A stretch of DNA of 64,000 nt from Cyanobacteria bacterium SBLK (GCA_017746715.1 JAGHZQ010000053.1:1-64000); one strand, 5' to 3'. Shown: positions 12,727 through 27,790, counted from the stretch's first letter. Translations and numbers: made by a program. Notes: generated from the sequence alone by a model not told the origin.

Positions 12727-12921
12727 TTAAATACTTGTTCTGGTAAAACAGGTATTTAAGCCCAGTTTAAAAAAATGAATCGCTTAGCAAAAAGTCATCC
12801 TACTTACTTTTTGTTAGACTTGTGTGTAACTTTCCACATTACCCCAAGTCCTGCGAATAAACTCTATATAAAACTGGGCTCGGGAATCTGTTCTGGCACA
12901 CTTGAGGTGTCAGTTTTTTTT
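12727..12921. ncRNA. Candidate structured non-coding RNA region
   Basis: Several nested inverted repeats lie between two terminators. TTAAATACTTGTT (12727-12739) pairs with AACAGGTATTTAA (12747-12759) with one wobble. AGCCCAGTTT (12759-12768) pairs with AAACTGGGCT (12871-12880) as a closing stem. Inside it, AGCAAAAAGT pairs with ACTTTTTGTT, and GACTTG pairs with CAAGTC. No protein-coding frame fits. No known RNA family is recognised, and the transcribed strand cannot be decided because terminators cap both directions. Confidence 0.5.
12893..12921 (+). terminator. Plus-strand terminator at the end of the structured region
   Basis: CTGGCAC pairs with GTGTCAG (one G:U), followed by TTTTTTTT. 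It would end a plus-strand transcript of the structured region and overlaps the last codons of the opposing repeat-protein gene. Confidence 0.65.
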
Positions 12922-13371
12922 ATCCCATTCAAAACCCGTTGACTTCGATGGAAACAAAAAGGTCACATCGAAATATGTTGAATTTTCTTCAACGTAATAG
13001 TTAGTTACATTTTTCTTGAAGGTGGGACTGTTCTTGAAGGTGGGACTGTTGTTGAAGGTGAGACTGTTATTACAGATGAAACTATTGTTGAAAGTGAAAC
13101 TATTGTTGAAGGTGGGACTATTATTGAAGGTGGGACTGTTTTTGAAGGTGGGACTGTTGTTGAAGGTGAGACTGTTGTTGAAGGTGAAACTATTGTTGAA
13201 GGTGAAACTATTGTTGAAAACTGGACAAATAATTGTATTTCCAATTACTTCCAAACTTCCAAAAATAGCAGCTAAAACGATCCGGAACAAAATCCAATTT
13301 GGAGGAGATTTGCGATCCTTTTTTTTAGAGATCGACTTCTCTCTGTTCGTCAAGGATGTTTTGTATGTCAT
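12910..13371 (-). CDS. Asn-rich hexapeptide-repeat protein with an N-terminal membrane anchor
   Basis: The family is not recognised. From the ATG at 13371, preceded by AGGA about 8 nt upstream, the 153-aa product has a basic N-terminus (SLTNREKSISKKKDRK), a hydrophobic segment (about residues 26-45, ILFRIVLAAIFGSLEVIG) and then about twelve six-residue repeats of the form FNNS(F/L/P)T. The order of variants is repeated (F,F,L,P,KP, then P, then F,F,L,P,KP), showing an internal duplication of about 108 bp. A regular Asn/Ser/Thr ladder suggests a beta-solenoid or fibrous surface structure, which is inference. The longer frame from 13446 lacks a ribosome-binding site. Confidence 0.6.
   Translation of the reverse strand: MTYKTSLTNREKSISKKKDRKSPPNWILFRIVLAAIFGSLEVIGNTIICPVFNNSFTFNNSFTFNNSLTFNNSPTFKNSPTFNNSPTFNNSFTFNNSFICNNSLTFNNSPTFKNSPTFKKNVTNYYVEENSTYFDVTFLFPSKSTGFEWDKKN
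13014..13218. repeat. 18-bp tandem repeats inside the Asn-repeat gene
   Basis: About eleven to twelve near-identical 18-bp units of the type ttgaaggtgggactgttg lie head to tail. Because 18 is a multiple of three, several frames stay open on both strands; only the minus frame has a proper start and anchor. There are no spacers, so it is not a CRISPR array. Confidence 0.9.
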
Positions 13372-13951
13372 TGTTTTCCTACGTGAAAGTACTTGACAAA
13401 ATTTAAGTGGAATTACGGGGCGAAAGTAAATTCGGAACGCAGACAAAGCAATCGAGCATATTTTTTCGTTTGCTAAATAAAATTTAGCAAGACAAAAATA
13501 AACAGCTCAAAAGTCTGTTACTGAAGGACCTTGTAGGTAATATACTTGTAACTTCTAAGTTACTCCCATATTCATACTAGCGAATTTTTTTTAGGTTATA
13601 CCAGTATTTTCTCTTACTTCACAAAATCTTGATAAAACTCTGGGAAATGTAAAATTACGGTGAAAAAAGTAGTGATAAGTATAAATACACAAAAACAAAA
13701 CGATTCAATAGAACAAAAGTAGATTGCTTAAGTACAAGAACTTTCTGGAATGCACCAGATCTAACATTTTTATTCTTCAGAAAAAACTTAAAAACAAACA
13801 TCGATATACTCTTGTAAGTTCTGGGTGATGTGGCGTAATTTTCTTGAAGTGTTTCTCTGGAGTTACCGATCGCATTTCCTGACCCACTCTCTTCTCAGTC
13901 GCGATCTCAGATGATAAATTTGGGGTGTTGGATTTCCATGCTCAAAATCCC
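13372..13951. other. AT-rich intergenic region of about 580 bp
   Basis: No convincing gene is visible. The space carries the leader of the Asn-repeat gene (Shine-Dalgarno AGGA near 13380) and the upstream region of the pentapeptide gene. A short palindrome GTAACTT-CT-AAGTTAC lies at 13548-13563. It is strikingly AT-rich compared with the flanking genes. Confidence 0.5.
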
Positions 13952-18053: not shown

Positions 18054-18926
18054 CTAATGGATAGGATATCCTGCTTCGATGCAAAGCGGTTCGCAATATT
18101 TTATCAAACGTTGCACGAGTTCGGCATCTAAAGAAGTTTTCCAACTGTCGATCTTGCCTTTTCTAAAGGTGCGAGCATTGGGATTATAAATTTCTTGGGC
18201 TTTGGCGATAATTCCCTCATCAAAAGGTACATCTAAATACTTGGCAATACGCTCGATCGCTTGCATTTGTTTTTCGTGACTTCCTCCTCCTCCTTCTCCG
18301 ACTAAATCCTCAAAATGTAGGAATAAAAGACCGGGGCGATCGCGCCATGCTAACATGGAGCGATAAACTTCTGCAAAACTTTTGATCGGAACCCCCGCAC
18401 GTTCTGCATAGCCTCCTTCTAAGACGAATTTAACGCGATCGCTTGGAGATAATGCCTTAATATCCTCCTCTAAAAAATGTCTGGCGGGCATTTTTCCCGT
18501 ATCCAAAAAGAAGGGGATGGAGGAAGCAACAACCGATCGGGGATCGCGAATAATAAAGACGTGATGAAAGCCGCTCTCTTCCAAAATCGGATTTAATAGC
18601 AAAGTATAAGGAATGTGACCGAGAATATAACTGCCCGGTTTCATTGCATCCAGCCAGCGTTGCACAACAGAGGGTTCGACAAACAAGGGAGTTAAAGCAC
18701 CGATACTAATTCCCGTATCGGGATGGGGAGCAAGGTTTTCTCGCTTTAAAGCCTTGAGGGATTCGCGCCGATTGAAGAAAATCGGGGTAATCGATTCGGA
18801 ATCGTCCTCGATATTGGGGCGATCGCTAAAATGCTCCTCGTATCCAAAAATCTCGATCGCTTTTGCTAAAAGATGCGTCCCGCTTTTGGGCAAAGAATTG
18901 ATTAAAATTTTCTGTTTCGATTTCAT
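18054..18926 (-). CDS. PAPS-dependent sulfotransferase (cluster gene)
   Basis: The protein of about 290 aa has the 5'-phosphosulfate loop in ILINSLPKSGTHLL and the 3'-phosphate loop in FIIRDPRSVVASS, both standard for PAPS sulfotransferases. The C-terminal RKGKIDSW element also contacts PAPS in the family. The start at 18926 is preferred because the upstream methyltransferase stops at 18931, leaving a gap of four bases; the longer frame from 19004 would overlap it. It probably adds sulfate to a hydroxyl of a small molecule, together with the methyltransferase. It is the last gene of the minus-strand biosynthetic cluster. Confidence 0.85.
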   Translation of the reverse strand: MKSKQKILINSLPKSGTHLLAKAIEIFGYEEHFSDRPNIEDDSESITPIFFNRRESLKALKRENLAPHPDTGISIGALTPLFVEPSVVQRWLDAMKPGSYILGHIPYTLLLNPILEESGFHHVFIIRDPRSVVASSIPFFLDTGKMPARHFLEEDIKALSPSDRVKFVLEGGYAERAGVPIKSFAEVYRSMLAWRDRPGLLFLHFEDLVGEGGGGSHEKQMQAIERIAKYLDVPFDEGIIAKAQEIYNPNARTFRKGKIDSWKTSLDAELVQRLIKYCEPLCIEAGYPIH

Positions 18927-18930
18927 CTCA

Positions 18931-19974
18931 TCAATTGGGAATGCACTCAACAATACTAACCACTGACTCGGTTGGAATAATTCTGACAATTTTGAATTTT
19001 GCAACTTTAAGCAGTTCCTTTAATTCATGCTCCATGCGAAACTTCCCTGATGATAAAACCAAAGAGTTCAAATTTGCAAAATAGTTTGTCCAATCAGTCT
19101 TGGAAATTCCCATGACTCTCTCAACTATTAATAATTTCGCCCCCTTCTTCATACTTTTGTGAAGATCCTGAAGGAGATTAATTGCGATAGGTTTTTCCAG
19201 AGTTTGAATAACATTTTTCATTAAATAGAGATCTGCTTCGATCGATATAAACTTGCAGAAGTTGCCAACAACTAATTCACAGCGATCGCGAACTCCCTCT
19301 CGATTCAGTAAATCTTTGGCTTTTTCAACGGGGTAGGGTTGCTCAAATAGAATACCTTGAAGAGTGGGATATCGCTTGAGAATTGATGCAAGCAAACTTC
19401 CTTGACCTCCGCCTATATCTGCTATTTTTTTTGCAATAGAAAAATCATAAGCGTTGATTATCGCAGAAGTTTGTATTGCTGATAAACTTGTATTTAATCC
19501 ATCCCAAATTTGACCAATTTTGGGATTTTGCTGAAAGTACTGAATACGTTTCATGCCATAAAGAAATTCAAAGGAATTTTGACCAGTCTGAAGACTGTGA
19601 ATCAATTCACCCCAGCAAGCATATCCGACTTCTCCTTGGAATAAAACATAGTTTCTCATCGAATCGGGACGATCGAGCAAACAAGTTCCTAGAGGAGTAA
19701 GGTGAAAACACATTGTCTCATTTTCTAAAAAAATTCCAACACTTGCTAAGGCCCTTAGCAGACGATAAAGAGCCTCACCATTCGTATTGGATTTTTTTGC
19801 TAGTTCGTTGCAGGATGTGCAACCTTCTTGAATCAGATCGGGAATGCCAAGTTTGGTCACAACAAAAATAGATTGCATTATTTGAAACCCTTGTACCATC
19901 TCCTTTAGTTGAGTTCCCAAAAGAGTTTTGTCGCCTAAATTACAAGGATTGAGTTGATTTTCTTTTTGTTTCAT
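18931..19974 (-). CDS. SAM-dependent O-methyltransferase
   Basis: The 347-aa product follows the plan of the acetylserotonin/caffeate/hydroxyneurosporene O-methyltransferase family: an N-terminal winged-helix dimerisation domain (LGIPDLIQEG; YRLLRALASVGIF) and a Rossmann domain with SAM loop IADIGGGQGSLL. The usual catalytic His in the DLHHW-type motif is not seen, and the matching region reads LMKNVIQTLEKP, so it may differ in mechanism or act on another group. It is translated just ahead of a sulfotransferase, suggesting methylation and sulfation of the same scaffold. Confidence 0.8.
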   Translation of the reverse strand: MKQKENQLNPCNLGDKTLLGTQLKEMVQGFQIMQSIFVVTKLGIPDLIQEGCTSCNELAKKSNTNGEALYRLLRALASVGIFLENETMCFHLTPLGTCLLDRPDSMRNYVLFQGEVGYACWGELIHSLQTGQNSFEFLYGMKRIQYFQQNPKIGQIWDGLNTSLSAIQTSAIINAYDFSIAKKIADIGGGQGSLLASILKRYPTLQGILFEQPYPVEKAKDLLNREGVRDRCELVVGNFCKFISIEADLYLMKNVIQTLEKPIAINLLQDLHKSMKKGAKLLIVERVMGISKTDWTNYFANLNSLVLSSGKFRMEHELKELLKVAKFKIVRIIPTESVVSIVECIPN

Positions 19975-20076
19975 TAGAAATCATTGAAACGCCAAGAAAA
20001 ATCATAATACAAAAAATCAACTTAGTGAACGGAGAACAGATCTTATGAAGAGTAGCTTCTTGCCTATTAAGTTTCT

Positions 20077-21840
20077 CTAAAACATTCCCAAAGGCGACAG
20101 GGCTTCGGGATCGATATGCACGTCTAACACCGTGGGTCCGGAATGGTTGCAAATTTCCTCATAGTCTAATTTCTGGAAATCTTCTGGCTGGTGAATGCTG
20201 TATCCTCGCGCCCCCATCGCCTGCGCCATCAAGCTAAAATCGACGGGAGGAATGGCAAAACCCAAACCATCTTTTACGACTTGGCGATGTCGTTGTTTGA
20301 CCATGCCGTAGGAGCGATCGTTTAAGATAATGAAAATAATTGGCAATTGTTCGGCTACGGCGACGGTAATTTCCTGTCCGTTCATTAAAAAGCTGCCATC
20401 CCCTGTCAGACAAACAACAGGCGTATCGGGAGTTCCCAAAGCCGTTCCCACGGCTCCCCCGATCGCCCAACCCATGGCCGCTAATTCTACCGAAGAGCGA
20501 TAATATTGCGGTTGGGGCAAAAATAGGTAATGAAACGACCAAACCATACAATTTCCCGTATCGATGAGAAAGCGGGTATGTTCTGGAAAACCCTGCATGA
20601 TTTCGTACATCAAACGAGTCGGATGAATAGGAGTCGCATTGCTGCGATAATCCTCGGGTTTTTGCACTTCAATTTGCGGCGGTTTTTCCCGCTTATTGAC
20701 TTCTGGCAATGTCTCCACCGATTTGTTGCCATTTGTCCCATTGAGGACATTCTTTTGCCGTCCTAACAACGCCTCAAATACGGTTTTGGGATTGCCGTAA
20801 ACGTGCAATCGTGCCATTGGCGATCGACTGAAAAAACTATTGTCATGATGAACGTGCACCAGTTTCTCATTTAAAAGCGCTTTATCCCAAGTCGAGGTTG
20901 CCCATTGCCCCAACGTCGTCCCCACTGCGAGAATGAAATCCACCGATTCATCCGTGAGAGCTGCGCGAGCGCTTTGATGCCCGGCAAACCCAAACACTCC
21001 CTTATACAAAGGATGATAGGGATTCACGCAAGATTTGCCCCCTTGGGTGGTGACGATCGCCGCTCCCATCAACTCGGCAAAGGCAATAATTTCTTCACCG
21101 GCTCGGGTGCAGTCTTCTCCCACCAATAAGACGACTTTGCGATCGCGTTTTTGAGTCTCGATTAAAAGTTGCGATAATTCTTCAATCGCCGCGAGATCGG
21201 CAAACGCTGGCACTTGCAGCAAGCGATCGATGTGAGGGTAACTCATGGACTCCGGTGCGGGAGCGCGAAATACATCGACGGGGACGCTCAAATGTACGGG
21301 ACCCGAGGGCGATTGAAAGGCGTGTTTGAAGGCGGCGATAAATTTCTGTTCGAGTTGCTTGGGATGGGTAATCACCGTGTTATAGCGCGTGCAGTTAGCA
21401 AACATTGCCCCAGTATCCAGCCAATCCGGGGAGGATTCTTGAAAGGCTCCCGCACCGAACTTAGGTAAGAGGGTCTGGCCGGTAATGGCTAAAATGGGGA
21501 TGCGATCGCTATAAGCAGAGGCAATGCCGGTAATGAGATTGGTCGCGCCGGGTCCCGTGGTGGCGCAGCAAACTCCCAGTTTTCCCGTTTCTCGGGCGTA
21601 ACCGTCTGCCATGGAAGCCGCACCGCTTTCTTGACGGGAGAGAATGGCTCGCATTCCTCCTCTACGCTGGCTGCGTTCTAAGGCTTCGTAGAGAGGGGCA
21701 ATATGTCCTCCCGGCACGCCAAAGACGTATTCTACTCCCAAAAGTTCTAAATAATCGACGACGAGATCGCTGAGGTGTCGGGGTTGGGAATCGGTCGGGG
21801 GTGGTGCTTTTTGGGTTTGCGGGACGATTTGGGCGGTCAT
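20077..21840 (-). CDS. Acetolactate-synthase-like ThDP-dependent enzyme
   Basis: The 587-aa protein has the three ThDP-enzyme domains: an N-terminal PYR domain with the cofactor-activating Glu in RQESGAAS, a central domain, and a C-terminal PP domain with the ThDP/Mg motif running from GDGSFLMNG to LNDRSYG. GVPGGHIAPLYEAL is typical of the acetolactate synthase, glyoxylate carboligase and benzaldehyde lyase group. The product cannot be told from sequence. Placement between an aminotransferase and an O-methyltransferase argues for a biosynthetic C-C ligation or decarboxylation step rather than housekeeping valine synthesis. No small regulatory (IlvN-type) subunit follows it. Confidence 0.82.
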   Translation of the reverse strand: MTAQIVPQTQKAPPPTDSQPRHLSDLVVDYLELLGVEYVFGVPGGHIAPLYEALERSQRRGGMRAILSRQESGAASMADGYARETGKLGVCCATTGPGATNLITGIASAYSDRIPILAITGQTLLPKFGAGAFQESSPDWLDTGAMFANCTRYNTVITHPKQLEQKFIAAFKHAFQSPSGPVHLSVPVDVFRAPAPESMSYPHIDRLLQVPAFADLAAIEELSQLLIETQKRDRKVVLLVGEDCTRAGEEIIAFAELMGAAIVTTQGGKSCVNPYHPLYKGVFGFAGHQSARAALTDESVDFILAVGTTLGQWATSTWDKALLNEKLVHVHHDNSFFSRSPMARLHVYGNPKTVFEALLGRQKNVLNGTNGNKSVETLPEVNKREKPPQIEVQKPEDYRSNATPIHPTRLMYEIMQGFPEHTRFLIDTGNCMVWSFHYLFLPQPQYYRSSVELAAMGWAIGGAVGTALGTPDTPVVCLTGDGSFLMNGQEITVAVAEQLPIIFIILNDRSYGMVKQRHRQVVKDGLGFAIPPVDFSLMAQAMGARGYSIHQPEDFQKLDYEEICNHSGPTVLDVHIDPEALSPLGMF

Positions 21841-21844
21841 TTCA

Positions 21845-21872
21845 GTTATCAGTTATCAGTTATCGGTTATCA
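21845..21872. repeat. GTTATCA heptanucleotide tandem repeat
   Basis: About four copies of a 7-bp unit (GTTATCA with one variant) lie directly upstream of the ThDP-enzyme start, separating it from the aminotransferase gene. Confidence 0.7.
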
Positions 21873-21956
21873 GTCGATCGGTTTCAACCGCTAAAGCGGG
21901 AGGCTTGAGACCCAATTATTTTGGTCATAATGGTTTGATTCTGATTTTTTCATGCT

Positions 21957-23318
21957 TCATGATTCGACACAAACAAGATTGAGAGATTTTTTCACTTGGG
22001 CAATGGTTGTTGCCAAAATTTCTACGAGTTCGTCGCATTCCTCTTCCGTAATCACGAAGGGGGGAGAAATCAAAATATGATCGCCATCTTTCCCCATACC
22101 GGTGCCGTTTCGACCTCGAATAATCAAACCATTTTCCAAAGCCGTTTTGACGATGGTTTTCGTGAGCTTTTTGGCAAAGGGAAAGGGTTCGCGAGAGGTG
22201 CGATCGCGTACGAATTCCAAGCCGATTAATAGCCCTTTCCCTCGCACGTCGCCGATTAAGAGTTCGCGATCGGCGAGGTCTTTTAATTTGCCTTTGAGGT
22301 ACTCTCCCCTCGCAGCACATTGCTCGATTAAGTTATGCTCGGCGATGTAATCTTGCACGGCAAGCGCCGCCGCGCAACTGATGGGGTGTCCTGCATAGGT
22401 AAATGAGATGGGGATAAATGGACGACTGCTGTCTTTGAAGGTTTTGCAGATGCGATCGTGCACGATCATTGCACCAATGGGGGCATAACCGCTACTGAGG
22501 GCTTTTGTTGCCGTGATGATATCGGGGGTTACGTTCCAATGTTCGATGCCGAAATTTTTCCCCGTGCGTCCAAACCCCGTGATTATCTCTTCGGAAATAA
22601 AGAGAATATCGTAAAAATCGCAGATTTCGCGGATTTTTTGATAATAGTCCGGTGGGGGAACGATCGCGCTTCCGGCCCCTCCGACGATGGGTTCGGCGAT
22701 GAAAGCGGCGATCGTGTCGGGATTTTCCTGTTCTAAGGTTTTGGCTAGATCTTCGGCACAGGCAAGCTGACAGTTGGGATAAGTCAGTTTGTAAGGACAC
22801 TGGTAACAGTGAGGAGCTTGAATGTGAGGAAAATCAAAGTTATGAACGAGTCCCCTGCGGACGAACATGCTGCCCGAAACGGCTAGGGTGGCCATGGTGC
22901 GTCCGTGATAGCTGTGCCACCGCCCGATAATTCTCGTTTTACTGGGTTTCCCTCGTTCTTGGTGATAGTACAGCGCCAGTTGACAGGCCATCTCATTGGC
23001 TGTGGATCCCCCTGTGGCAAAGGCAACCCGATTCATCTCTGCTGGTGCCATGGCTGCAATTCTCGCGGCAAGGCGTTCTTGCACTGCGGTTGTAAACTGA
23101 GCTTTATGGACGAAACAAAGTTTTTTGGCTTGTTCGGCCATCGCTTCCCCAATTTCTGCCACCCCGTGTCCGATAGAAATCACATGCGTTCCACCGATGC
23201 CATCTAGATAGCGTTTGCCTTCAGAGTCGTAGACGCAAACACCTTTACCGCTTTCTAGGACGGAATATGAGTGATTAAAACCCATCGGATAAAAAACATG
23301 AGATTCGGCTTGTTCCAT
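21957..23318 (-). CDS. Class III PLP-dependent aminotransferase
   Basis: The 453-aa protein matches fold-type I class III aminotransferases (omega-amino acid, taurine or beta-alanine transaminases). Visible are the phosphate-binding FATGGSTANE, the aromatic stacking region GRWHSYHGRTMATL, the FISEEIITGFGRTG motif and the PLP Lys in ITATKALSSGYAPIG. A Cys-rich insert (HCYQCPYKLTYPNCQLAC) in the middle is unusual and might bind metal, though it could be only a variable loop. It lies 31 bp downstream of the DUF98 gene and probably forms an operon with it. The amine substrate is unknown. Confidence 0.85.
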   Translation of the reverse strand: MEQAESHVFYPMGFNHSYSVLESGKGVCVYDSEGKRYLDGIGGTHVISIGHGVAEIGEAMAEQAKKLCFVHKAQFTTAVQERLAARIAAMAPAEMNRVAFATGGSTANEMACQLALYYHQERGKPSKTRIIGRWHSYHGRTMATLAVSGSMFVRRGLVHNFDFPHIQAPHCYQCPYKLTYPNCQLACAEDLAKTLEQENPDTIAAFIAEPIVGGAGSAIVPPPDYYQKIREICDFYDILFISEEIITGFGRTGKNFGIEHWNVTPDIITATKALSSGYAPIGAMIVHDRICKTFKDSSRPFIPISFTYAGHPISCAAALAVQDYIAEHNLIEQCAARGEYLKGKLKDLADRELLIGDVRGKGLLIGLEFVRDRTSREPFPFAKKLTKTIVKTALENGLIIRGRNGTGMGKDGDHILISPPFVITEEECDELVEILATTIAQVKKSLNLVCVES

Positions 23319-23349
23319 TGAATTATTGCTCTCTTAAAAAATCGAAGGA

Positions 23350-23934
23350 TTAAGAACGAAAGTAGGTTTCGGGAAATTTTTCGGTAATCATCATCACGGG
23401 TTTGCGATCGGTGAACACTAAATAAGTTCTGAAGAGAATCTTATCATCGGGTCCGATGAGAAAATAATCGGCTAATTTCCCGGCGGGTTCTTTGCCCGAG
23501 TCGATAATTTCTTTAAAGGTCTCTACTTTATGTTGCAACCACAATTTGCCAATGGGGGTTTTGGTTTTTAGCAATCCGTCTTGAAAGCGTTCGTCTAGCC
23601 TTTCGGGGACGATAATCGATTCGGCATAGAGAAAATTTTTGTGGCTGATTTTGCCTTGCAATAAGATTTTGCGTTCGACGATCGGCGTACCGCGTTGTAA
23701 TTTCAAAGGCGGAATTTCTTTGACTGTGGTAACTAAACCTTCTCCCAATTTGACTACTTTCATATTTTCCAGCAAATAGGCTTCTAACATTTCGGTTACG
23801 GTTCCGTCTGTTGTCAGGAGAATCCGTTGGAAAGTGCTGAGGCTGGCTGGTTCGATGTGACTGCGTTTTAAGGATTGATCTAAGTCTGCCCTCATTAAGT
23901 TAGGGGCATCGGTTGCGAGTTGATTGGCGTGCAT
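23350..23934 (-). CDS. DUF98/Ycf21 family chorismate-lyase-like protein
   Basis: The 194-aa protein resembles the DUF98 (chorismate pyruvate-lyase-like, Ycf21) family: FQRILLTTDGTVTEMLEAYL near residues 37-56, AESIIVPERL, TPIGKLW, and a C-terminal hydrophobic strand. In Synechocystis the sll1797 homologue makes 4-hydroxybenzoate from chorismate for plastoquinone. This copy could be the housekeeping enzyme or a paralogue that feeds 4-hydroxybenzoate to the surrounding cluster. The short spacing to the aminotransferase supports the second reading but does not prove it. Confidence 0.75.
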   Translation of the reverse strand: MHANQLATDAPNLMRADLDQSLKRSHIEPASLSTFQRILLTTDGTVTEMLEAYLLENMKVVKLGEGLVTTVKEIPPLKLQRGTPIVERKILLQGKISHKNFLYAESIIVPERLDERFQDGLLKTKTPIGKLWLQHKVETFKEIIDSGKEPAGKLADYFLIGPDDKILFRTYLVFTDRKPVMMITEKFPETYFRS

Positions 23935-24122
23935 TTTTTTGCTCCCTTAATTGTACTCGGATCGATTGTACTCGGCACTATTTGCGAAACTACCCCGTTC
24001 TTATTTGGTTATAAGCTAGAACCCGACCTTCTCGCAAGATAAATTCTGGAAATTATGCTTCTGTCCTTCGATTGAATCAAAGCAATGGGCGATCTTAACG
24101 GTTTGTTCGGTGTTTGCGTTCA

Positions 24123-25439
24123 TTATTTTTCGGAGTGAATGTCGATCGTGTGGATATCAGGTGAGGAGGAGAAAGTACGAGAAAAATTTTGCCTGGGTTC
24201 AGGGGAGCGATCGCTCTCGGGAATTTCGCCGATTTTCTGCCAGTAAGAAAGATAGACGGATAAGAGTTTTCGGTCGATTGTCGGACAAGAAATTGATGTA
24301 TTTGCTAATCCTTCTCGAATCCGTTCTATATCGAAGAGGGGTTTGCGAGCAAATAACTTAATTTGCGAGTTAAAGAAGAGTCGAGAAATTGAATAGAGTT
24401 CTTTGTCGTTTCGAGCTTTCGCATATTTTTTGAGTTCCTCGACCCATGTTTTATAATGCGTCTCTTCTAGATTGTAACCAAAGCCTTGAATTTCTTGAAT
24501 TAATTTTTTCCAAGGAATGGGTTGTGGATTTAAAAGGTGAAAAGATATATGTTCTTGAGATTGTTGCGCTAGCGATGCTTTTTGTTGGGATAAATAAACA
24601 ATTGCTTGACTGACATAATCTATCGGCACGATATTGAGTGTCGTATCTATATCGGGAAATTTACCCATTGCAATACAGGCTTTAATTGCCAAATATAAGA
24701 TATCTTTAAGATTGCCAGCAATACCGGTTTTACTGTGTCCCATAATTCTTCCCGGTCTGTAAATACAAGCGGGCAATCCTTTTTCTTTTGCTTTAAGAAT
24801 TAATTGTTCGGCGACCCATTTACTCTGCTTGTATCCTCCTTTCAAGGTTTCCGATGTCGGCAAATCGGTTTCTTTAATTGCGCGATCGATGAGGTTGTCG
24901 GTAAAATAATAAGGACTAAAAAAAACACCAATTGTGGAAATAAAATGAATGGGTTTGACTTTCGGGTAACTGGCTAAGCGTAATATCTCTTGGGTGGCTA
25001 AAACATTAGCCGCTTTTAAAGTTGCATAGGGATAGAATGAATTGACCCAAGCCCCATTATGATAAATAACATCAATGCGATCGCTTAATTCCTCAAACTG
25101 CTCTCGAGATAGATCGAAATGCGGTTTCGCTAAATCTCCTTTAATGGTAATAATTCGCGTTGTAAATGCTTCTTGCCATAACAAATAATGCTCTAAATTT
25201 GCTTTGATGCGCTCCGTTCCGGCTGCAAAATCATCACAGCGCACTAAACAATAAATAGTTGCCTTCGTTTTCTGAATTAATTCTACCAGTAAATGAGCGC
25301 CGACAAAGCCGGTTACTCCTGTTAAGAGAATCGATTGGGGTTGCAGCCAAGACTCGGAGAAGGCATTTTTAGGCAAAGAATGGTCAAACTTAATATCTGG
25401 ATCGAGTCTGGCTTCTGCGAGCAAGTCAAGTGATTTCAT
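24123..25439 (-). CDS. Stand-alone thioester reductase (NAD_binding_4/SDR)
   Basis: The 438-aa protein has an NADPH-binding Rossmann motif GVTGFVGAHLL at about residues 41-51, the catalytic YxxxK in YKQSKWVAEQL, and INVIP-type signatures (NIVPIDYVSQAI) of the thioester reductase domains that close NRPS/PKS lines and carboxylic acid reductases. Here it stands alone, with no adenylation or carrier domain in the gene or next to it. It may reduce an acyl-CoA or acyl-carrier thioester made elsewhere to an aldehyde or alcohol. The Ser/Pro-rich tail of about 25 residues looks disordered. Confidence 0.8.
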   Translation of the reverse strand: MKSLDLLAEARLDPDIKFDHSLPKNAFSESWLQPQSILLTGVTGFVGAHLLVELIQKTKATIYCLVRCDDFAAGTERIKANLEHYLLWQEAFTTRIITIKGDLAKPHFDLSREQFEELSDRIDVIYHNGAWVNSFYPYATLKAANVLATQEILRLASYPKVKPIHFISTIGVFFSPYYFTDNLIDRAIKETDLPTSETLKGGYKQSKWVAEQLILKAKEKGLPACIYRPGRIMGHSKTGIAGNLKDILYLAIKACIAMGKFPDIDTTLNIVPIDYVSQAIVYLSQQKASLAQQSQEHISFHLLNPQPIPWKKLIQEIQGFGYNLEETHYKTWVEELKKYAKARNDKELYSISRLFFNSQIKLFARKPLFDIERIREGLANTSISCPTIDRKLLSVYLSYWQKIGEIPESDRSPEPRQNFSRTFSSSPDIHTIDIHSEK

Positions 25440-25601
25440 TACATATTTGCTTGAGGGTACTTTAATAATCTGAGAACCTATTGCTCTTAGCTTAATCGAT
25501 GTAATTATTTTGTCAAGTCAAATTATTTTTTTTGAATTTTATTATTTTATAGAAAACATTCTCCTAAATAACAATCTTAAATGTTAGCGGATTTTTTCTG
25601 C

Positions 25602-26300
25602 TTACAAACCTGAAGAAATTGCCAGAGATTGAAAATCGACATTCTCGTTATCAAAATCATAACCAAATAATTGAATATCCTCCTGAAATATATCTGCAAC
25701 TATTCCTTTTGTTTTTTCGTTATAATAGGTTCGGTAATCTTGTTTGGTTCGACTCGATTGGTTAACGTGAGGCAAATGTGCCTCAATATGGAGCCGATCG
25801 CAGACAGATTGAAAATCCTGCGCCAAATTTTCATAGCGTCCGATAAAGTCAACCATAATTTTTCCATTGCGATCGCTAATAATATCTTTTTGTAATTTAG
25901 TTGCTCCCTTTGCATAAGGTCTATCTGTTATGGCAACCCAGTCTAAATATTCTTCAAATGTTACCCAAGGTCTGGTTTCTTCATAAATCTTTTCTTTAAT
26001 CATAAAGTTGTACATCGACACCTGCCAATCCCAAGGGTTTCGAACGAAGGCAAACTTATAAAAATCATGATAAACCTCTGATGGCAGATATTTTTCTGCG
26101 TCTCGTGCTTTGGCATGCCACAAAAAACTAAACCACATTTCGTAGAGGGGATTGGGTTTACCTTCTAACATTTTAGGAGGGCGAGCAATTCTGAATTTAT
26201 CGGGTTCTCGCGCGTACTCTTTGAGTGCTTCTCGCATGCTCGTTCCGGCAACTTTCGCAACGTGAAAGAAAATGAATTTTTGGGTATAGGAAATTAACAT
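25602..26300 (-). CDS. Sulfotransferase, Sulfotransfer_2-like
   Basis: From the ATG at 26300 (MLISYTQKFIFFHVAKVAGT) the product is 232 aa. The 5'-PSB loop is HVAKVAGTSM and the 3'-PB region is FAFVRNPWDWQVSMYNF, as in the HNK-1/heparan type Sulfotransfer_2 family. Starts further upstream would lie well inside the preceding gene. The chosen start overlaps the stop of the 498-aa sulfotransferase by seven bases, so the two are probably translationally coupled. The acceptor is unknown; carbohydrate or hydroxylated lipid is usual for this family. Confidence 0.82.
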   Translation of the reverse strand: MLISYTQKFIFFHVAKVAGTSMREALKEYAREPDKFRIARPPKMLEGKPNPLYEMWFSFLWHAKARDAEKYLPSEVYHDFYKFAFVRNPWDWQVSMYNFMIKEKIYEETRPWVTFEEYLDWVAITDRPYAKGATKLQKDIISDRNGKIMVDFIGRYENLAQDFQSVCDRLHIEAHLPHVNQSSRTKQDYRTYYNEKTKGIVADIFQEDIQLFGYDFDNENVDFQSLAISSGL

Positions 26301-27790
26301 AGATTTTGACTTTCTATCAGATTGACAATCGGTTCGACAATAGGCAGGACTTTGAGAATTTCTCGTTCGTTTTTTCGCCATTTATCGGGAGAGGGTTGAG
26401 AAAAGCTCATGCGAGAAACGGGTAAAGATTGAGAAACAATTCCTTCTATTTTCTCATCCCAACTCAATTTGGTAAATTTACCGATTTTTGTTATGCTTTC
26501 TTTGGGATCGCCAATGAGATCGCGATAGTTCAAACTGCACCAATCGGAGGCAGGAATTGCTTTTAAATCTTCGAGAATGTAAGTATTGGCAGCTTTCCAT
26601 TGATGCGCTGCAATTTCAGCTAGAGAAGATTCTTTTAAAGATTGCCATTCGGGAATCAACAGAAAATTCCAATCTCGATGCGGCCAATTAGGGAGAGAGG
26701 GATAAGCCATAAAGCGACGCGATCGCCATCCTTCCATAATGCTGCTGATATTTCCCTTTGGCTCTCGATAGAGAAAGATAAACAGAGCATCGGGAAAAAC
26801 AGCTTTGAGAAAGGAAACCCGCAGGGCATTTCTCGGGGTTTTCTCTAGAAAGCGAATTGTTTCGGGACGCTGGCCGGGTGGAACGTTAAGATAGGCAGAT
26901 TGAGAGCGATCGCGCAATTGTCGGGTAAACCCTTCTCGCAACTTTTCTCCAATATCGGGGGAAGCGTTGTCTGCCGTCAAGCGGTTGGAGCTATAATTCC
27001 GAGTAGCGGGATGCAGTTCTGGAATGGCTTCGATGATATCGTGGCTTTCCGTGCCGAGACCCCAGAGGTTTGGGAATTGAGAGAGGGTCTCAAATAACAG
27101 CGTACTCCCCGCTCTCGGGGCGGAAACGATAAAGATGGGTCTCTCGAATTCTGGCAGGGATAACGCTTCTTCGAGTTGTTTGAGAGCGATCGCTTTTTGT
27201 AAGACCCGAGCAAATTCTTCCGAGTTTTGCGGTTTGGGTTTCTCGGTATCTAAAGAAGAAGGAAGTAATGAGAGTTTTTGCCAGACTTCCTCTGGTGTTG
27301 TTGGAGAACGAAAAAATTCTAAAATCCCTTTGTCTTCCAATAATAGATCTTGCTGGGAATTCTCTGTAAAGTGCTGGGTCGTGCGATAACGAGCATTCCA
27401 GTGCAGTTGGGTTTTGACTCCTAATTTGAGTCTCGCCAATAAACGCAGATTGATGGGTTTTGATTTGGGTGTTTTGGGAATGGGGAACATTGCAGAGATC
27501 TCTGCGATCGCTTTCCTCCCTGCACTCGACTCGGGTAATTTTTTGTCAACTTTCGCAACAATTTCCTCTTGAAAACCAATGAGTAAATCGCGATAGCTTA
27601 ATTCTCCGCGATCGCTATCCCCAAAGCGAACATAAGTATTTTTCCAATCTCGCATAAATTTATCGAGAGATTGTTCGAGAGCGGTTACTTCGCTTGCGGG
27701 TATATTTGCACCTTTTAATTCGGCAAGCAATGTCTTGCCTAGCTCGAAAATTTTTTCGGGGGGTCGTATCTTAAAGGAATTCGCTTCCAT
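26294..27790 (-). CDS. Sulfotransferase, Sulfotransfer_3-like, with an N-terminal extension
   Basis: The 498-aa product has the sulfotransferase domain in its C-terminal 300 residues: the PAPS loop FIVSAPRAGSTLL near residue 215, LEKTPRNALRVSF, and the 3'-PB motif FLYREPKGNISSI. The first 200 residues are mostly helical and not recognised; they may be a docking or acceptor domain. It is the first gene of the minus-strand cluster, overlapping the next sulfotransferase. Long two-part sulfotransferases of this kind occur next to cyanobacterial polyketide and peptide pathways. Confidence 0.82.
   Translation of the reverse strand: MEANSFKIRPPEKIFELGKTLLAELKGANIPASEVTALEQSLDKFMRDWKNTYVRFGDSDRGELSYRDLLIGFQEEIVAKVDKKLPESSAGRKAIAEISAMFPIPKTPKSKPINLRLLARLKLGVKTQLHWNARYRTTQHFTENSQQDLLLEDKGILEFFRSPTTPEEVWQKLSLLPSSLDTEKPKPQNSEEFARVLQKAIALKQLEEALSLPEFERPIFIVSAPRAGSTLLFETLSQFPNLWGLGTESHDIIEAIPELHPATRNYSSNRLTADNASPDIGEKLREGFTRQLRDRSQSAYLNVPPGQRPETIRFLEKTPRNALRVSFLKAVFPDALFIFLYREPKGNISSIMEGWRSRRFMAYPSLPNWPHRDWNFLLIPEWQSLKESSLAEIAAHQWKAANTYILEDLKAIPASDWCSLNYRDLIGDPKESITKIGKFTKLSWDEKIEGIVSQSLPVSRMSFSQPSPDKWRKNEREILKVLPIVEPIVNLIESQNLC

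Follow-up and report, generated by a model that had tools for sequence, protein, structure and literature searches.

Cyanobacteria bacterium SBLK carries eight consecutive minus-strand genes at positions 18054 to 27790 of a 64,000-nucleotide stretch of DNA, hereafter the window. Three sulfotransferases are encoded beside a thioester reductase and a chorismate-lyase-like protein. Does this set form a biosynthetic unit and, if so, what might it make? An earlier note had proposed an undescribed cluster, with no NRPS or PKS, acting on a chorismate-derived aromatic acid.

The eight-gene locus

All eight ORFs are open and intact, and Pfam and TIGR matches bear out the families that the earlier note had named (Table 1). 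The ST2 and ST1 starts were set differently from the longest ORFs. For ST2, the ATG listed is the most likely start because conservation among relatives begins at MLIS; it overlaps the ST3 stop by 7 bases. The ST1 ATG is 4 bases past the OMT stop and the remaining intergenic gaps are 31-188 bases. Promoter and terminator scans gave chance-level results only. Outside the locus, 11 copies of an 18-base unit are repeated in tandem at positions 13016-13218 of the window, within a repetitive ORF on the minus strand (12910-13446).

Table 1. Genes of the window locus, in order of transcription.
Gene	Product and family	Length (aa)	Position	Strand	Basis
ST3	Long sulfotransferase, Sulfotransfer_3	498	26294..27790	-	Pfam, 89.9 bits
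ST2	Sulfotransferase, Sulfotransfer_2	232	25602..26300	-	Pfam, 62.1 bits; start ATG 26300
TR	Stand-alone thioester reductase, NAD_binding_4	438	24123..25439	-	TIGR01746
DUF98	Chorismate-lyase-like protein, PF01947 (Rv2949c-like)	194	23350..23934	-	Pfam
AT3	Class III aminotransferase, Aminotran_3	453	21957..23318	-	Pfam, 314.8 bits
ThDP	Acyloin-type enzyme, three-domain	587	20077..21840	-	Pfam; nearest structure BbmA 8x3x
OMT	O-methyltransferase, Methyltransf_2 + Dimerisation	347	18931..19974	-	Pfam, 105 bits
ST1	Sulfotransferase, Sulfotransfer_1	290	18054..18926	-	Pfam, 50.2 bits; start ATG 18926

Alignment of ST3 with its relatives reveals a conserved PAPS-type motif (SAPR.GS.LLF) and a conserved LYR. 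The ST3 gene adjoins radical-SAM or ST2 genes in Spirulina, Trichodesmium, Xenococcus and genomes G172, G064, G253, G235 and G357; in Thioploca it is similarly placed, but on the opposite strand. ST2 is directly upstream of DUF98 in most cyanobacterial and sulfur-bacterial relatives (gap of -52 to +35). With regard to the ST2 acceptor, a profile search found no relative among solved structures, and the predicted model had a mean pLDDT of 53, too low for a structure search. In Spirulina, G064, G235 and G357, the gene immediately after ThDP is ST1. TR exceeds the cut-off of the thioester reductase model TIGR01746 (318.8 bits versus 213.35) and its TGxTGFxG (Rossmann) and YxxxK motifs are conserved. 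AT3 has 67-84% identical relatives next to DUF98 in Spirulina and G064, as well as in the G253 and G235 clusters. OMT has 41-44% identical counterparts in the G253, G235 and G357 clusters and is absent from that of Spirulina. The clusters of G064 and Trichodesmium have APS kinase genes nearby, consistent with the PAPS demand of sulfotransferases.

Conservation of the gene set and a second locus

The earlier note held that separation of the genes in close relatives would speak against a joint pathway. Instead, the nearest relative, Spirulina sp. CCY15215 of the same genus, keeps seven of the eight together. Genome G064 has a single cluster of ~15 kb comprising ligase, carrier, radical-SAM, ST3, DUF98, AT3, flippase, ST2, ThDP, ST1 and TR genes. 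The whole set is spread over one contig in G235 and G357, where ST2 is about 20 kb from DUF98, beside ThDP. TR sits between ST2 and DUF98 in the window and Spirulina; the ST2-DUF98 order is rearranged in G064. One DDE transposase gene (L065:10993-12168) lies between ST3 and DUF98 of the G064 cluster. The G235 cluster has four tandem ORFs of about 270-284 aa, alike at their starts, between ST1 and TR (L150:3681-7129); the three tested had no Pfam match.

Relatives of DUF98 with at least 50% identity occur in 12 of 386 cyanobacterial genomes. In named genomes we located 27 loci, including those of Spirulina, Trichodesmium, Xenococcus, Thioploca, Halobeggiatoa, Thiomargarita, Marithrix and a Desulfobacterales MAG. 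Clustering by neighbours split the loci into three groups. Group 1 carries sulfotransferases, together with ligase, carrier and HemN-like radical-SAM genes, often directly upstream. Group 2 is free of sulfotransferases and has aryl ligase, DAHP synthase, carrier and condensation-carrier-thioesterase genes as neighbours. Group 3 has neither type of neighbour. Loci of the group 2 type are L034-L037, L063, L064 and L049, and some of them also encode a halogenase-like FAD protein or a 4-hydroxybenzoate 3-monooxygenase-like protein (a hydroxylase).

The radical-SAM protein is present in 16 of 33 genomes (DUF98-bearing plus control), and 15 of these also have ST2. In the sixteenth, Thioploca SL4, ST2 was not seen in the 20 kb examined. 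The stretches examined in the other 17 held no full-length ST2; Parabeggiatoa 3 has a fragment. Among the 386 cyanobacterial genomes, the radical-SAM protein (at least 60% identity; next best about 32%) and ST2 (at least 58%) occur in exactly the same six: the window genome (G000), G064, G172, G235, G253 and G357. At a threshold of at least 57% identity, ThDP is present in five of the six and nowhere else; its four relatives outside the window genome are 57-58% identical and all accompany the cluster. Genus-collapsed hypergeometric p values were about 6e-8 (radical SAM and ST2) and 8e-6 (ThDP), and are guides only because the genomes are not independent. On this phylogenetic profile, the grouping of the eight genes is not due to chance. 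Thus, the set behaves as the co-occurring unit that the earlier note had suspected, with far better support than the window alone could give.

Outside the cyanobacteria, the core is present in Thioploca, Halobeggiatoa, Thiomargarita and the Desulfobacterales MAG, usually with ST2 and DUF98 back to back. The sulfur-bacterial loci examined have the core without ThDP and TR and, hence, the full chain is not universal. The Desulfobacterales locus encodes an anSME-like radical-SAM protein and a condensation-carrier protein. LamG-sulfatases or related sulfatases are encoded in the Trichodesmium, G357 and G235 clusters. Predicted sulfatase functions therefore recur at these loci; that they act on the pathway product is only possible. 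The Thiomargarita ligase match (L093, G401:C108:19251-20690) contains one in-frame TAG stop. The genes point to an undescribed sulfated metabolite, and their distribution among cyanobacteria and large sulfur bacteria, both tight and patchy, suggests pathway exchange and a shared ecological use. A literature search for a link between Beggiatoa and cyanobacteria via sulfotransferases returned nothing relevant by title.

Another contig of the window genome, C36, encodes an AMP (aryl-acid) ligase together with a carrier protein and a radical-SAM enzyme of HemN-like type (G000:C36:51039-54257). This trio is followed by genes for two alkylsulfatase-like proteins, a Wzx/MATE-like flippase (Polysacc_synt), a formylglycine-generating enzyme (FGE) and a type I sulfatase. 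The second locus of Spirulina is collinear, but has one alkylsulfatase-like gene. Flippase, FGE and alkylsulfatase-like genes at a second locus were found in this genus only; the flippase is also in G064. The carrier motif LGxDS, with its Ser, and the radical-SAM motif CX3CX2C are conserved. The match of the radical-SAM protein to NocN is limited to residues 40-238 (85.8 bits), and that to HemN covers a longer region (119 bits); the protein is also close to HemW. Hence, C-methylation is only one option for its activity.

By uniting genes of both kinds, the single G064 cluster ties the C36 locus to the window locus. Thioester reductases, by family, require a carrier thioester, and the predicted carrier protein of the C36 locus can supply one for TR. 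The second locus accounts for the absence of carrier-protein enzymes from the window locus, which looks free of NRPS genes because it is apparently half of a carrier-protein pathway. The absence of NRPS and PKS genes thus holds for the window but not for the genome, given the ligase, carrier and radical-SAM genes on C36; some relatives add condensation-carrier or NRPS modules.

The chorismate-lyase-like protein and the ThDP enzyme

DUF98 exceeds the curated Pfam cut-off (PF01947, 59.8 bits versus 22). Its predicted structure (pLDDT 77) has a chorismate-lyase fold (2nwi, Z 17.6) and also aligns with E. coli chorismate lyase bound to product (1fw9, Z 10.4). Residues R88 and E185 are invariant among relatives. 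These data agree with the family assignment in the earlier note. GntR effector domains have the same fold and, hence, the fold alone does not prove function.

The housekeeping chorismate lyase, NF037993, is related in sequence and is expected to make 4-hydroxybenzoate. DUF98 scores only 30-31 bits with that model, against a cut-off of 175, and belongs to a separate subfamily. Searches of the window genome with PF01947 and NF037993 each matched the window gene only, and no second chorismate lyase was found in this 95% complete assembly. Because of that incompleteness an unassembled copy is possible, yet the genus-mate (99% complete) also has none. Almost every other member of the Cyanobacteriia that was searched has a gene scoring above the NF037993 cut-off, among them G116 and eight more genomes of the same family. 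The window genome and its genus-mate have only the new-type DUF98, as do G172, Xenococcus and about eight more (the genomes with this pattern are G000, G406, G172, G394, G360, G300, G422, G391-G393, G395 and G396). Both types are present in G064, G235, G253, G357, a Trichodesmium MAG and others, and DUF98 is kept in the cluster.

DUF98 is therefore the sole chorismate-lyase candidate in about a dozen cyanobacteria, several of them plastoquinone makers. For this reason it is probably a working chorismate lyase and, in the window genome, may also serve plastoquinone synthesis. As judged from sequence, it is a distinct subfamily of predicted chorismate lyases that also occurs in sulfur bacteria. 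In several cyanobacteria this second subfamily seems to have taken the place of the housekeeping gene, an apparent repeated displacement of a plastoquinone gene. We rejected a single clean sulfotransferase-linked DUF98 clade, since the label requires at least 3 changes on the tree. In the loci of two tree rows labelled A, Thioploca SL4 and Parabeggiatoa 3, ST2 is either missing or reduced to a fragment.

The earlier note would also have counted against itself DUF98 and ThDP being the only housekeeping copies in the genome. This is half the case, because DUF98 is the only chorismate lyase found. ThDP is not a housekeeping enzyme. The true acetolactate synthase large subunit is encoded on contig C61 and scores 1154 bits, over the cut-off, compared with 263 for the window gene; we therefore rejected that role for ThDP, which also fails the acetolactate synthase equivalog model (TIGR00118, 301.8 bits versus 538). 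Scytonemin ScyA is likewise an acetolactate-synthase-like ThDP enzyme of cyanobacterial secondary metabolism, but the window protein is far below the cut-off of its model (NF035923, 243.6 bits versus 1020).

The nearest solved structure is that of BbmA, and CsmA is also near. With CybE, these acyloin synthases of cyanobacterin-type and related pathways are the nearest characterised relatives and combine C-C coupling with decarboxylation. CybE is described as coupling two 2-oxo acids (PMC12395478) and CsmA as an acyloin synthase (PMC13307353). ThDP scores only 335 bits with BbmA. Pfam and NCBIfam family models named none of the eight cluster proteins as the furanolide synthase CybF.

A proposed two-locus pathway and its alternatives

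The reading we favour, at about even odds, is that the eight genes supply one half of a two-locus pathway to a sulfated metabolite derived from 4-hydroxybenzoate. The genes, their family assignments, their joint conservation and the second locus are observed; the substrates, order of steps, export and desulfation set out here are inferred. DUF98 would convert chorismate to 4-hydroxybenzoate, which the C36 ligase would load onto the C36 carrier protein. The HemN-like radical-SAM enzyme would then modify the carrier-bound ring; the simplest change, and by analogy with NosN a guess, is C-methylation. TR would release the product reductively as an aldehyde. ThDP could couple this aldehyde, or else a 2-oxo acid, with a 2-oxo acid that is decarboxylated; AT3 would transaminate the resulting alpha-hydroxy ketone to an amino alcohol. 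OMT and the three PAPS-dependent sulfotransferases would decorate this compound, and the flippase would export the sulfated product. The sulfatases encoded beside the flippase, one with an FGE activator, may strip sulfate outside the cell. Against this scheme, CybE joins two 2-oxo acids rather than a TR-derived aldehyde, the two loci are on different contigs in the window genome, and DUF98 may be kept for plastoquinone alone. The scheme gives a testable parts list over two loci, which a cluster finder restricted to one locus could miss or underrate. Its boldest form is doubtful: that 4-hydroxybenzoate is radical-modified on a carrier, multiply sulfated, exported in sulfated form and unmasked outside by FGE-activated sulfatases, as a new pathway class that filamentous cyanobacteria would have in common with giant sulfur bacteria and a Desulfobacterales lineage.

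The NRPS-type modules of some relatives suggest another product. Here, 4-hydroxybenzoate would start or cap a short peptide, with modules elsewhere adding amino acids; TR would free a peptide aldehyde, AT3 would convert it to an amine, and sulfation would follow. TR is fused to a condensation-carrier didomain next to DUF98 in G172, the condensation-carrier protein of the Desulfobacterales locus fits the same scheme, and NRPS proteins of 1464-1501 aa are encoded in the G253, G235 and G357 clusters. The group 2 neighbours of DUF98 point the same way. Conversely, no condensation-domain protein was recognised at the known loci of the window genome, Spirulina or G064, and we regard a peptide as a somewhat unlikely product. 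Distinctly less probable is a role in surface decoration, in which the Wzx-like protein would flip a glycan or lipid for export, the sulfotransferases and sulfatases would act on this molecule, and the aromatic unit would be an ester or ether ornament of it. The Polysacc_synt flippase of the second locus and the G064 cluster, and the type I sulfatase and FGE of the second locus, would suit such a role, as would a polysaccharide-export gene near the Trichodesmium ligase and a UPP-synthase-like gene in G253, G235 and G357. However, no glycosyltransferase or UbiA-type prenyltransferase was recognised among the proteins scanned, and TR, the class III aminotransferase and ThDP are better suited to small-molecule chemistry.

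DUF98 could also be merely the plastoquinone chorismate lyase, beside an unrelated sulfotransferase and redox cluster. It is the only gene of its type found in the window genome, the same-genus genome and G172, and the eight family genomes without new-type DUF98 carry the usual housekeeping gene. We nonetheless judge this highly unlikely, given that ST2 and DUF98 are back to back in both cyanobacteria and sulfur bacteria and that genomes with a separate housekeeping copy still keep DUF98 in the cluster.

The proposed two-locus pathway to a sulfated 4-hydroxybenzoate compound, whose core recurs in giant sulfur bacteria, is apparently undescribed. As the earlier note had supposed, a literature search combining chorismate lyase, sulfotransferase and radical SAM gave no match, and a wider search gave no matching pathway by title. 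On sulfotransferase-sulfatase prodrug logic, the search found only fungal aryl sulfotransferases. The closest likeness to the C36 trio is NosI-NosJ-NosN, which C-methylates an aryl acid on a carrier for the nosiheptide side ring (PMC5585349). Both systems pair an adenylating ligase and a stand-alone carrier with a HemN-like radical-SAM enzyme; for nosiheptide these work on an aryl acid bound to the carrier as a thioester, and here they may do the same. However, NosL supplies 3-methyl-2-indolic acid for nosiheptide, a thiopeptide, whereas the acid here is probably 4-hydroxybenzoate from DUF98. The reductase, ThDP enzyme, aminotransferase and sulfotransferases also set the present system apart. 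In the Microbulbifer 4-BP cluster, a dedicated chorismate lyase with a neighbouring DAHP synthase gene supplies an aromatic natural product (PMC10579414). This cluster differs in pairing the lyase with a halogenase to give a brominated biphenyldiol; carrier, radical-SAM and sulfotransferase genes are not among the parts described in the available portion of that report. Within the genus of the window genome, Spirulina sp. CCY15215 encodes a Trp-halogenase-like FAD protein between TR and DUF98 (L032:8138-9907) that is missing from the window. Hence, the product in Spirulina may be halogenated.
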